Of a stretch of DNA of 64,000 nucleotides, positions 38,171 through 44,799 are shown piece by piece. Made by a program: the position numbers and the translations under genes. The notes beneath the pieces were generated by a model. The model saw only the letters and a program-made list of their open reading frames with translations. It had not been told where the DNA came from and did not search any database. The DNA is from Thermocaproicibacter melissae (lineage in GTDB: Bacteria; Bacillota; Clostridia; Oscillospirales; Acutalibacteraceae). The stretch spans positions 872,001 through 936,000 of the forward strand of contig NZ_CP101827.1 in NCBI RefSeq assembly GCF_024498295.1, in the 5' to 3' direction. How positions within the stretch are numbered: the first letter of the stretch is position 1; every line of letters starts with the position of its first letter.

Positions 38171-39430
38171 TCACTTACCGATATCGTGTCTGTAATGTGC
38201 GCCGTCGAAATGGATTTTATCCACTCCGCTGTACGCACGGGCAAGGGCTTCGTCCAGTGTTTTCCCGAGGGCGGTAACACCGAGGACGCGACCGCCATTC
38301 GTGTAAAACTTTCCATCCTTCCACACGGTCCCGGCATGGAAAACGGTAACACCGTCGACCTGCCCGTCAGCATTCAGGCCATGAATTTCAATACCCTTTT
38401 TATATGCCTCTGGGTACCCGCCAGAAGCCATGACGACGCAGGCACATGCCTCGTTGCTCCATTCGATGTCCTGCTGTTCCAGGCGCTCGTCAATGACAGC
38501 CTCCAAAATATCGACAAGATCGGTTTTCAGGCGCGGAAGCACGACCTGCGTTTCCGGGTCACCGAAGCGAGAGTTGTACTCAATAACCTTTGGACCGTCC
38601 TTCGTCAGCATCAGGCCAAAATACAGGCATCCCTTGAATGGCCGGCCCTCCTGATTCATTGCGTGAATCGTCGGGAGAAAAATTGTTTTCATACATTCTT
38701 CAGCAATTTCCGGGGTGTAGAACGGATTCGGGCTGATGGTACCCATACCGCCGGTATTTAGGCCTCGATTGCCGTCTAATGCGCGCTTGTGGTCTTTGGA
38801 AGACACCATCGGTTTGACGCATTTGCCGTCTGTGAAAGCAAGCACAGAAACCTCCGGCCCGGTCAGGAATTCTTCGACGACTACCCGGTTGCCAGATGCA
38901 CCGAATTTTTTGTCTTCCATGATGGTCTTTACGGCGTCTTGTGCCTCTTCGTAATTTTCCGCGATGATAACACCTTTGCCAAGAGCAAGGCCGTCTGCTT
39001 TAATGACCGTCGGATAGGTATTCCGCGAAGCAATATAATTCAGCACCTTGGAGGGGTCATCGAATACCTCGTACGCAGCCGTCGGAATATGGTATTTTTT
39101 CATCAGGTTCTTAGAAAACACCTTGCTGCTTTCGATTTCCGCCGCTTTTGCCGTCGGGCCGAAGGCGCGGATTCCAGCTTTCTGAAGTTCGTCTACCATT
39201 CCTGCTGCAAGCGGGTCATCCGGTGCAACAAAAACGAGGTCAATCTCATTCTCTTTGGCAAACTTCACAACGCCCGGAATATCCATAGCAGAGATTGGGA
39301 CACATTCGGCATCTTTGGAAATACCGCCGTTACCGGGCGCGCAGTAAAGCTTAGAAACGCGGGGACTTTCCAGCAGTTTGCGGACGATTGCATGCTCACG
39401 GCCGCCGCCGCCGATTACAAGGATTTTCAT
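38171..39430 (-). CDS. purD: Phosphoribosylamine-glycine ligase
   Basis: Joins phosphoribosylamine and glycine with ATP, step 2 of purine synthesis. A 419-residue ATP-grasp enzyme with IGGGGREHAIV at the start, KADGLALGKGVI in the ATP-grasp domain, NTGGMGTISP, and the signature EYNSRFGDPETQVVLPR. Last gene of the operon, 21 bases after the AICAR transformylase gene. Confidence 0.97.
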   Translation of the reverse strand: MKILVIGGGGREHAIVRKLLESPRVSKLYCAPGNGGISKDAECVPISAMDIPGVVKFAKENEIDLVFVAPDDPLAAGMVDELQKAGIRAFGPTAKAAEIESSKVFSKNLMKKYHIPTAAYEVFDDPSKVLNYIASRNTYPTVIKADGLALGKGVIIAENYEEAQDAVKTIMEDKKFGASGNRVVVEEFLTGPEVSVLAFTDGKCVKPMVSSKDHKRALDGNRGLNTGGMGTISPNPFYTPEIAEECMKTIFLPTIHAMNQEGRPFKGCLYFGLMLTKDGPKVIEYNSRFGDPETQVVLPRLKTDLVDILEAVIDERLEQQDIEWSNEACACVVMASGGYPEAYKKGIEIHGLNADGQVDGVTVFHAGTVWKDGKFYTNGGRVLGVTALGKTLDEALARAYSGVDKIHFDGAHYRHDIGK

Positions 39431-40684: not shown

Positions 40685-41407
40685 TTACGCGTTCCGGCTA
40701 AGATTCTTGTTAAAGATGCGTGTATCTACCAGTTTTGTATTCAAGTTGATGTAACGCACAAACAGTGATATTTTATTGTCTTCGTTTAGGTTCGACCAAA
40801 GATGTTCGGCAAACTCGTCGATGGTTCCTTTCAAAGAAATATGGGTAGGTTCTCCCTCAAACGACAGAAGCGGTTGTCCATCACCGACATAGGTATGAAT
40901 CAGCCAGCCTTCCCCATCTTTAGGATCGTTGTACTCGAAGAAAAAACGCTGCGTTGTTGTGCCTGCCGCATCTCCGCTTTTTAGAATCGACAGGCGCAGG
41001 CGGAGCGTCTCATTCAGCTCCACAAGGCCGGAGATGCGCGGAGTGAAATTGGGGCTATCCGGCTCAAAGGTGCGAGTCCGAAGCGCATCTTCAAACGTTC
41101 TGCCGTTGGAGAGGAAGTCATAAATCGTGTCTGTCTGGTCTCCGTTCGTCACAATGGTGGTGTCACCCAAAACTCGAACCGGAGAATAGATGATGAGAGA
41201 CGGGTCCGTCAGCTTCGAGGGATCATAAGCCTCTGTGCGGATTCCTTTGCCGTCTTCAACAAAGATTCTGTTGCGGCTGTTCTCGCTGCGCCCCATGATA
41301 AAATACGCAATGACAGCATTCTGCCCATCTTCACTTTTTCCGAGCAGGATTCCGCGGCCCGGGTAAGAATTGGAACCGAGAGTTTCTTCGATTGTTTTGA
41401 GATTCAT
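40685..41407 (-). CDS. purO: IMP cyclohydrolase, archaeal PurO type
   Basis: A 240-residue protein of the IMP cyclohydrolase family first described in archaea (PurO). It closes the inosine ring, the last step of purine synthesis. The family start is clear: NSYPGRGILLGKSEDG...VIAYFIMGRSENSRNR. ITNGDQTDTI-like (here VTNGDQTDTIYD) and PNFTPRISG follow. It is unrelated in sequence to the PurH cyclohydrolase domain. The gene overlaps purN by four bases and precedes the stand-alone AICAR transformylase, which together replace PurH. Confidence 0.9.
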   Translation of the reverse strand: MNLKTIEETLGSNSYPGRGILLGKSEDGQNAVIAYFIMGRSENSRNRIFVEDGKGIRTEAYDPSKLTDPSLIIYSPVRVLGDTTIVTNGDQTDTIYDFLSNGRTFEDALRTRTFEPDSPNFTPRISGLVELNETLRLRLSILKSGDAAGTTTQRFFFEYNDPKDGEGWLIHTYVGDGQPLLSFEGEPTHISLKGTIDEFAEHLWSNLNEDNKISLFVRYINLNTKLVDTRIFNKNLSRNA

Positions 41408-43081: not shown

Positions 43082-43588
43082 TCAGAGTTTCGCTGCTTCT
43101 TCCTGAATGGCCTTATCTTTTGCGGCCACTTTCTCCTTCATCTGTTTTTTCATTTCTTTCAGTTTTGCTGCAAGGGTTGGGTCGCTCAATGCAAGAATCT
43201 CCGCCGCAAGAACTGCCGCGTTTTCCGCTCCGCCAACCGCAACCGTTGCCACAGGAATTCCGCTCGGCATCTGCACGGTCGCAAGCAAAGCATCAAGGCC
43301 CTCCAGTGCGGCCGACTTCATCGGTATACCGATGACGGGCAGGGTTGTGTAAGCTGCAAGAACACCGGCCAAATGTGCAGCCATTCCTGCGGCCGCTATG
43401 ATTACGCCAAACCCGTTTTCTTCTGCTGAAGACGCAAATTCTGCCGCCGCCTGTGGGGTCCTGTGAGCGGAAATAACATGAGTTTCCGTAGGGATTCCGA
43501 AAGACTTCAGCTTTTTTACGGCTGCCGAAACAACGGGGAAATCACTGTCGCTTCCCATGATGACAGCAACTTTCTTCTGCTCTGACAT
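43082..43588 (-). CDS. purE: N5-carboxyaminoimidazole ribonucleotide mutase
   Basis: Moves the carboxyl group of N5-CAIR to give CAIR, step 6b. A 168-residue class I PurE with [12 protein letters not shown] at the start, VISAHRTP with the catalytic His, and GMAAHLAGV and [11 protein letters not shown] later. The C-terminal tail is Lys- and Glu-rich. The ATG at 43588 has AGGAGTGG upstream. A longer open frame to 43807 is leader RNA and is not coding. It is the first gene of the operon. Confidence 0.96.
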
Positions 43589-43772
43589 TGAACCACTCCT
43601 TTGCATTTGCATCGATACGTAATACGGACCAAGGCGGAAACTGCACCAACCGAAAAAAGAACAGACCGCGCCTTCCATGACGCGGTCTAATGCAAAACGG
43701 TATTCGGTTTCCCACGATCCAGAGTATCCTGTCGCGGGAACTGTCCGCGGGGGTCCGTTTCCGCAATCATCT
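43589..43772 (-). promoter_or_regulatory. Structured leader of the purine operon (candidate riboswitch, unassigned)
   Basis: About 180 bases between the promoter and purE. The first 85 bases can fold as a long P1-like stem (TGCGGAAACGG with CCGTTTTGCA, one bulge) enclosing a hairpin of 8 outer and 3 inner pairs (TTCCCGCGA...TCGTGGGAA). A terminator follows. I do not recognise the conserved cores of the guanine, ZTP, ykkC/PRPP, THF or TPP classes. The arrangement implies transcriptional control by an unknown ligand or factor. Confidence 0.6.
43652..43688 (-). terminator. Intrinsic terminator inside the purE leader
   Basis: On the minus strand AGACCGCG pairs with CGCGGTCT around a 10-base loop, followed by TGTTCTTTTTT. 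It lies upstream of purE, so it must act as an attenuator. Confidence 0.85.
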
Positions 43773-43778
43773 GCTTCT

Positions 43779-43807
43779 ATTTTAGGAGATTTGTGTATAA
43801 AATGCAA
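43779..43807 (-). promoter_or_regulatory. Promoter of the purine operon
   Basis: On the minus strand TTGCAT (43807-43802) and TAAAAT (43784-43779) with a 17-base spacer, upstream of the structured leader. Confidence 0.75.
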
Positions 43808-43878
43808 GTGATTTGAATTTATTATGCAAAAAATAAAAGCCCACTTCTCGCGAATAATTTGTGAACCGTGCTGAATTT

Positions 43879-44799
43879 TTACTTCTTATCTTCTTCGGCA
43901 GAAGGAACATCATTGCGGATTAATTCCGTAAGGGAAGTTGCAAGGCCTGCAAGCGACTGAATCTGTGAAGGGATAATAATCTTAGTTGCTTTGCCATCTG
44001 CAAGCTTCTCGAACGCCTCAAGGCTCTTAAGGGCAATAACCGCTTGTGTAGGATTGGCTTCGTTCAGCATTTTGATTCCGGAAGCCAAAGCCTGCTGTAC
44101 CAGTCGGATGGCTTCTGCTTCGCCCTGCGCTTCGCGGATTTTTGTTTCCTTAATTGCATCCGCACGGAGAATCGCAGATTCTTTTTCGCCTTCCGCAACC
44201 AGAATTGCGCTGCTCTTTTCGCCTTCTGCAGCCAGAATCTGGGCACGGCGTTCACGTTCTGCTTTCATCTGCTTCTCCATGGACTCCTGAATCTCGCGAG
44301 GCGGTATGATATTCTTGAGTTCTACGCGATTGACCTTAATGCCCCACGCATCGGTTGCTTCATCGAGCACAGTGCGGATTTTTGCATTAATGACATCGCG
44401 GGATGTAAGAGTATGGTCGAGTTCCAGCTCACCGATAATGTTCCTCAGGGTTGTTGCGGAAAGGTTTTCAATAGCAGATAGCGGGCGCTCCACACCATAA
44501 GCGTACAGCTTCGGGTCCGTAATTTGGAAGTAAACAACCGTGTCAATCTGCATCGTTACGTTATCTTTCGTGATAACAGGCTGCGGCGGGAAATCAATGA
44601 CCTGTTCCTTCAAAGAGACCTTCTTTGCAACTCTGTCGAAAAAAGGCACCAAGAAATGAAGGCCGGTGTCCCACGTAACGCGGTAAGCTCCGAGACGTTC
44701 CACGACATAGGCATGGGCTTGCGGAACTACTTTGACGTTGGTGACCAAGATGAGAATGACAATAACAAGCAGAATCAGGAAAATCAAAAACGGATCCAT
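43879..44799 (-). CDS. SPFH/stomatin-like membrane protein (slipin, QmcA-like)
   Basis: A 306-residue protein with one N-terminal membrane helix (residues 3-22), a PHB/SPFH domain (VPQAHAYVVERLGAY...VPFFDRVAKKV, then VITKDNVTMQIDTVVYFQITDP) and a long Ala/Glu-rich coiled coil (residues 190-250). Such proteins form oligomeric membrane scaffolds and often guard membrane proteases. The gene lies 15 bases after an nfeD gene, the usual partner. Confidence 0.92.
   Translation of the reverse strand: MDPFLIFLILLVIVILILVTNVKVVPQAHAYVVERLGAYRVTWDTGLHFLVPFFDRVAKKVSLKEQVIDFPPQPVITKDNVTMQIDTVVYFQITDPKLYAYGVERPLSAIENLSATTLRNIIGELELDHTLTSRDVINAKIRTVLDEATDAWGIKVNRVELKNIIPPREIQESMEKQMKAERERRAQILAAEGEKSSAILVAEGEKESAILRADAIKETKIREAQGEAEAIRLVQQALASGIKMLNEANPTQAVIALKSLEAFEKLADGKATKIIIPSQIQSLAGLATSLTELIRNDVPSAEEDKK

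Follow-up and report, generated by a model that had tools for sequence, protein, structure and literature searches.

What decides whether transcription reaches purE, the first gene of a purine operon in Thermocaproicibacter melissae? The leader in front of this gene lies on the minus strand of the window (the whole stretch of 64,000 nucleotides that was analysed), between an SPFH-type gene (43879-44799) and purE (43588-43082). The best NCBIfam matches of the SPFH-type gene are HflK and HflC, both below the cut-off. The operon has the gene order purE-purM-purN-IMP cyclohydrolase-like-AICAR formyltransferase, and then comes a purD-like ORF at 38171-39430, a name that was assigned by eye. The IMP cyclohydrolase-like (PurO-type) protein, encoded at 40685-41407 on the minus strand, reaches 55.6 bits in NCBIfam, far below the cut-off of 150. 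Its ORF adjoins a stand-alone AICAR formyltransferase, and the pair replaces the bifunctional PurH. The elements that frame the leader are the following:

43802-43807, minus strand: -35 element TTGCAT, matching 3 of 6 consensus positions; same site in four related genomes
43779-43784, minus strand: -10 element TAAAAT, matching 5 of 6 consensus positions, 17-nt spacer; same site in four related genomes
43662-43689, minus strand: hairpin of the intrinsic terminator, TAGACCGCGTC/GGCGCGGTCTG, with 7 GC pairs among its 11
43655-43661, minus strand: T-rich tail TTCTTTTTT of the terminator, starting at 43661
43082-43588, minus strand: purE, first gene of the operon (NCBIfam TIGR01162)

The first-pass annotation, made from the sequence alone, had described a promoter with a 17-base spacer and an intrinsic terminator before purE. 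Both were confirmed. The hexamers of the promoter were found, and a promoter of identical spacing also precedes purE in the relatives G001, G009, G008 and G006. The 11-pair terminator hairpin is kept in the sister species G001, G009 and G008; in the alignment of the four species its positions are 100% paired, and one pair is changed on both sides. The transcript start was placed at about 43772 from the position of the -10 element. Transcription would thus begin approximately 180 nt before purE and meet the intrinsic terminator after approximately 83 nt. As the terminator is located between the start and purE, the gene is reached by read-through. A simple promoter scan gave no promoter between the terminator and purE. 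This result is weak, because the leader promoter, with hexamers matching the consensus at 3/6 and 5/6 positions, is absent from the list of the same scan. The succession of promoter, leader, conserved terminator and purE supports the earlier reading of the leader as an attenuator. We propose, with a probability of about 0.5, that the leader of the window is an attenuator of the pur operon and that it is related to an order-wide class of leaders resembling the pyrBI attenuator, the ribosome-dependent step in the window itself being a guess.

The order-wide class was delineated by comparison of the purE leaders of relatives. The discovery set consisted of 170 leaders (30 + 80 + 60), from which six duplicates (L032, L034, L055, L087, L098 and L103) and three leaders that were too short or contained N were dropped, leaving 161. 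A total of 134 genomes contained purE; the analysis drew on 90 of them, 30 as loci and 60 as fetched sequences. The held-out set comprised 80 of the matches listed and was analysed with rules fixed beforehand; four duplicates and one leader that was too short were dropped, so that 75 were usable. These leaders originate from the window's family, and some of the genera are also represented in the discovery set. Five of them (L198, L202, L214, L223 and L233) are nearly identical to discovery leaders; none of the five belongs to the 28 held-out leaders with an ORF described below. A terminator was counted when a terminator-like hairpin ended 10-115 nt before purE. A leader ORF was required to have 8-60 codons, an ATG, GTG or TTG start, a Shine-Dalgarno match of at least 5 and a stop codon within -4 to +8 nt of the stem.

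Terminator-like hairpins were found before purE in 79 of the 161 discovery leaders and in 49 of the 75 held-out leaders, 128 in total. Many of the relatives' leaders consist of a promoter, a GGAGG-type Shine-Dalgarno sequence, a short ORF and a terminator located a few bases from the stop codon. An ORF led by a Shine-Dalgarno sequence and stopping at the stem is present in 34/79 discovery leaders, compared with 0-2 at ten shifted positions. With ATG starts only, the count is 26/79 against 0-1 at eight shifted positions. The held-out set yielded 28/49 (28/46 without the near-identical leaders) against 0-2 at shifted positions. In both sets together, 62 of the 128 terminator leaders carry a leader ORF, with a length of 13-52 codons and, in 49/62, a gap of -2 or 3 to 6 nt between stop and stem. 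These 62 leaders come from 33 numbered genera and 12 named loci, and the numbered genera span six families. The composition of the ORF frame was determined for 37 leaders: glycine accounts for 9.7% (4.0 and 5.5% in the other frames) and serine for 10.2% (5.8 and 7.5%). Inspection by eye of the leader ORFs listed showed no common runs of regulatory codons of the kind expected for an amino-acid attenuator of the trp/his type. A helix competing with the 5′ arm of the terminator was not detected in the upstream 110 nt of 34 leaders (mean z 0.0, s.e. 0.16).

The same leaders contain a second shared element, which resembles the consensus pause of RNA polymerase. This pause includes G at -11, T at -3 and G at -2, and its positions -10G, -1Y and +1G are given in the available text of PMC10268239. 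The pattern was first noticed in the discovery leaders and was tested afterwards. A looser score requiring 5 of the 6 positions gave a much weaker signal, with 23 of 37 leaders compared with 16.5 in shuffles, 13 of the 500 being as high; all six positions matched in 10 of 37 (1.8 in shuffles, 0 of 500 as high). The motif GG-N6-TGYR occurs in 17/34 discovery leaders, against 2.9 ± 1.6 in dinucleotide shuffles (0/1000 as high) and 2/34 in control stretches farther upstream, and in 13/28 held-out leaders, against 2.0 ± 1.4 in shuffles (0/1000 as high). When the spacing was varied across the 62 leaders, N6 was found 30 times and N5 20 times, compared with 3-8 times for nine other spacings. The N5 or N6 form is present in 32 of the 62 ORF leaders and absent from 30. 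After weighting by genus, the motif lies 10-32 nt ahead of the stem in 15.8 of 45 groups, compared with 1.2 in shuffles. At +1, 37 of 39 sites have a purine (19 G and 18 A), compared with 55% for other TGY sites of the same stretches. The motif sites fall into all three frames of the ORF (19, 12 and 6 of 37), and it is therefore more likely to be a nucleic-acid signal than a peptide motif. Of 12 ZTP-riboswitch leaders one carries the motif, as do 13 of the 54 remaining terminator leaders, which have no ZTP riboswitch; in some of these 13 (L017, L022, L025, L039, L072 and L109) a leader ORF narrowly fails the ORF rule. The enrichment and the specific spacing of the motif suggest that the order-wide leaders carry a candidate polymerase pause before the terminator.

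For the order-wide class we infer pausing, coupling and nucleotide sensing. What the sequences themselves show is the anatomy of its leaders, in this order a promoter, a Shine-Dalgarno sequence, a leader ORF of 13-52 codons, the motif of a consensus pause (32 of 62 leaders) and a stop codon lying on the terminator. When GTP or ATP is scarce, the polymerase would wait longer at the TGY|purine pause, and this longer pause would allow the ribosome on the leader ORF to catch up. A ribosome at the stop codon would cover the 5′ arm of the terminator, so that the terminator could not fold and purE would be expressed. With plentiful purine NTPs, the polymerase would outrun the ribosome and transcription would terminate. 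Coupling of the pyrBI type is the most likely mechanism for the order-wide class. Transcription and translation may be only loosely coupled in Firmicutes, which speaks against this mechanism.

In the pyrBI attenuator of E. coli, nucleotide-sensitive pausing is combined with a leader polypeptide, and the frame of the leader ORF runs through the terminator and ends shortly before the gene start. Common to pyrBI and the order-wide class are an ORF that reaches the terminator and an operon for nucleotide synthesis; a pause located before the terminator and an antiterminating ribosome would be shared as well. Unlike pyrBI, the class belongs to the purE operon of Clostridia, its ORF ends at the stem and does not continue through it, and its candidate consensus pause has a purine as the next base. 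The excerpts of published studies that we consulted provide precedents for single steps. The text of PMC4824070, in which the pyrBI attenuator is mentioned, describes that in E. coli termination fell from about 90% to less than 10% when the stop codon was placed 5 bp instead of 28 bp ahead of the terminator. In a reconstituted system, a trailing ribosome cut termination from 21.5% to 9.9% (PMC10135430). Bypass of the consensus pause decreased from about 22% to 7% when GTP was lowered from 100 to 10 µM (PMC6336406). In the leader-peptide attenuator of tlrB (yxjB) from the Gram-positive Bacillus subtilis, pausing synchronises polymerase and ribosome (PMC6851288). As proposed for the order-wide class, this system uses a leader peptide and a pause to time the ribosome so that the terminator is blocked. 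It differs in that the ribosome is stalled by a drug, the pause is NusG-dependent and located after the leader ORF, and the regulated gene is a resistance gene (PMC6851288).

The comparison across the order speaks for an attenuator dependent on a ribosome and a pause as the design to which the leader of the window is related. The window's own copy is less complete. Two further elements have to be considered here:

43755-43772, minus strand: conserved 5′ block AGATGATTGCGGAAACGG, near-identical in four species, at the predicted transcript start
43687-43770, minus strand: leaderless 27-codon ORF, candidate coding, with the ATG at 43770 and the TAG at 43689-43687, where the terminator stem begins

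No ORF led by a Shine-Dalgarno sequence ends at the stem in the window's leader, and no GG-N5/6-TGYR motif is found in the 110 nt before the stem; in both respects the window's copy differs from pyrBI. Among the five leaders of its clade, only that of G001 has the pause, in the N5 form at the edge of the stem. The ATG of the leaderless ORF is two bases from the predicted transcript start. In the sister species, the ATG frame stops after 8 codons (G008) or passes through the terminator (G009), and one-base indels directly after the conserved 5′ block disrupt any frame common to the clade. By eye, a TTG frame is open to or near the terminator in all five clade leaders; the one in the window has no Shine-Dalgarno sequence. 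Because the clade lacks both the Shine-Dalgarno-led ORF and the pause (except for the N5 form of G001), and because the ATG frame is not conserved, the leader of the window is regarded as a related, diverged attenuator and is not assigned to the order-wide class. Only the promoter, the terminator and the leaderless AUG-ORF remain in the window, and the ribosome step there is therefore a guess. The switch of the window might, as a guess, involve leaderless translation from the 5′ AUG, decay or replacement of the original elements, or a protein acting at the 5′ block.

The distribution of the leader within the genus bears on whether it still acts as a switch. A search against 10 genomes of the genus at E ≤ 0.001 gave matches in three other genomes (G009, 1.5e-14; G001, 2.1e-14; G008, 3.0e-7) and none in six of the ten. 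G006 contains a shorter, diverged version that was recognised by eye; in the remaining five genomes no unit of promoter, block and terminator was seen by eye before purE. One genome, G005, has a terminator-like hairpin before purE. In L005, L006 and L009, open frames cross the terminator and stop 2-4 nt short of the purE start, like the frame of the pyrBI leader; the GC-rich sequence makes this resemblance weak. The neighbouring genus g158, whose purE is 78-80% identical, has canonical leaders (L187, L188 and L191) which by eye resemble that of the window in the terminator and the promoter (ATC.CCTAMAATA in L188 and L191). The canonical leaders of g158, the lack of a Shine-Dalgarno sequence and a pause in the window's clade and the six genomes without a match would fit a vestigial attenuator: its ORF and pause would have decayed, leaving a partly leaky terminator that keeps purE at a constant level. 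We consider this possible, though on the unlikely side, because the strong conservation of the 5′ block and terminator in four species, around a sequence that cannot be aligned, suggests selection.

For the order-wide class, the leader ORFs could also encode ligand-sensing arrest peptides, or they could be small genes with ordinary terminators, in both cases without a purine-NTP sensor. Ruminococcus-type leader ORFs (L037, L040, L045, L049, L051, L063, L090 and L096) have an AHS/HSN-like stretch in common, which could reflect either peptide or nucleotide conservation and which speaks for arrest peptides. The leader peptides are otherwise dissimilar, with no general peptide motif, and the signal that they have in common occurs in all three frames. 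As to small genes, the distance from the terminator to the purE match is at least 50 nt in 33/62 leaders, which provides space for another promoter; in the other 29/62 it is below 50 nt, so that little space is left for one. We regard an order-wide class without such a sensor as unlikely, and pyrBI-like attenuation is retained for it.

The conserved 5′ block could alternatively be the target of a protein that binds it as RNA or DNA and either governs whether transcription terminates or reads through, or blocks it. When the four species are aligned, the 5′ end of the transcript (AGATGATTGCGRAAACGG) and the terminator are conserved and the stretch between them is not. Besides the promoter and the terminator, the AGATGATTGCGRAAACGG block is the only conserved element, and the spacing beside it varies by single bases, as would be expected of a binding site. 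A second regulatory copy was not found: the genome has nine further near-matches, and the two that were inspected both lie in coding sequence. Control by a protein at the block appears distinctly improbable to us. The block was also considered as a regulon element, and this was rejected, as the further partial matches that were inspected all lie in coding sequence (L122 and L267 according to ORF lists, L123 and L124 by eye). A near-copy of 22 nt with 95% identity lies in the same genome (L122, 1585-1606) inside a coding sequence containing ITKQMIAETG, which we take to be that of a DHH-type phosphoesterase. A diverged near-copy is found in the same coding sequence of G001 (L123, 1476-1497, minus strand). 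The near-copies in this coding sequence are probably a coincidence. The sequence GTTTCCGC after the terminator (43633-43640, minus strand) is complementary to GCGGAAAC of the block, and similar complements exist in G001, G009 and G008. The resulting long-range helix was rejected: it is striking by eye, but its pairing is not significant against shuffles (p values of 0.13, 0.22, 0.07, 0.78 and 0.23 in the five clade leaders).

In addition, the first-pass annotation had pointed to a fold with a long closing stem and one hairpin, to two exclusive folds formed by CGCGG and the CCGCG of the terminator arm, and from there to a new or highly diverged riboswitch or a protein-binding attenuator. The closing stem and the hairpin are indeed the minimum-energy fold. 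This fold does not stand out when the terminator is excluded (z -3.08 with the terminator and -1.75 without it, 12/200 shuffles being at least as good), and the closing stem is not retained in the other three aligned leaders. For the stretch before the terminator, the z values are -1.7 in the window, -3.9 in G001, -0.5 in G009, +1.5 in G008 and +1.0 in G006. The pairing of five bases with the terminator arm is at the level of chance: a complement of this length arises in 55% of dinucleotide shuffles of the window's leader. It is present in G001 and G009 (62% and 82% of shuffles, respectively) and absent from G008 and G006; in the latter it never arises in shuffles either, which makes that comparison uninformative. 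Three of the four species retain a stem CCCGCGG/CCGYGGG, in which wobble changes affect one side only; in G008 it is broken. In the four clade sequences, pair changes on both sides are confined to the terminator helix or its extension, and no conserved core lies between the 5′ block and the terminator. As the annotation had noted, the leader contains no core of a known guanine, PRPP or ZTP riboswitch: Rfam gave no match at the gathering threshold in the whole window, the ZTP, purine and PRPP families included, and no match to the T-box RF00230. The region 43400-44000 produced one spurious lncRNA match (E 9.6).

Covariation in homologous leaders was the annotation's own test of its riboswitch. 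No covariation was found outside the terminator helix or its extension in the four clade sequences, in which one stem is kept in three, and on this test the riboswitch reading fails. Rfam searches of the window and 120 related loci, the clade alignment, the pair counts and the consensus fold were considered in this judgement. The position before purE, the wobble-tolerant stem in three of four species and the strong fold of G001 speak for a clade-limited riboswitch sensing a purine metabolite, but with no Rfam match, a stem broken in G008, folds that in three of the five leaders do not surpass those of shuffles and an unconserved sequence from block to terminator, it is very improbable.

Riboswitches do occupy the same slot in related genomes. 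Among the 60 leaders L127-L186, the ZMP/ZTP riboswitch RF01750 lies directly before purE in 16 (L140, L141, L149, L152, L154, L158, L161, L167, L172, L179-L181 and L183-L186) and the purine riboswitch RF00167 in one (L147). RF01750 differs from the leaders described here in having an aptamer with a conserved core, and RF00167 has no counterpart in the window. Rfam detected no riboswitch at purE in any of the 34 ORF leaders of the discovery set. In L074, a T-box lies more than 700 nt upstream on the other strand.

Related genomes thus put different sensors before purE: a ZTP riboswitch, a purine riboswitch, or a leader ORF with a pause. Among the matches listed from the open-access literature, as far as their text was available, none was found to describe a leader-peptide attenuator before purE, and in the accessible text of Naville and Gautheret 2010 (PMC2965389) neither purE nor purine is mentioned. 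Our tentative proposal is that many Clostridia of the order may control purine synthesis without an aptamer or a dedicated regulator. The polymerase would sense GTP and ATP at a pause located mostly 10-32 nt before the terminator, and the wait would be read by the ribosome that translates the leader ORF; the leader of the window would be a leaderless derivative. If this is true, the leaders would be a purine counterpart of pyrBI attenuation, in the slot held by ZTP and purine riboswitches in sister lineages. The consensus polymerase pause would gain a defined job, namely reporting the supply of purine NTPs to the ribosome. The proposal would also account for the regulation of purine synthesis in a large group of gut Clostridia, in which a known riboswitch is found at purE in only 17 of 60 leaders (L127-L186).
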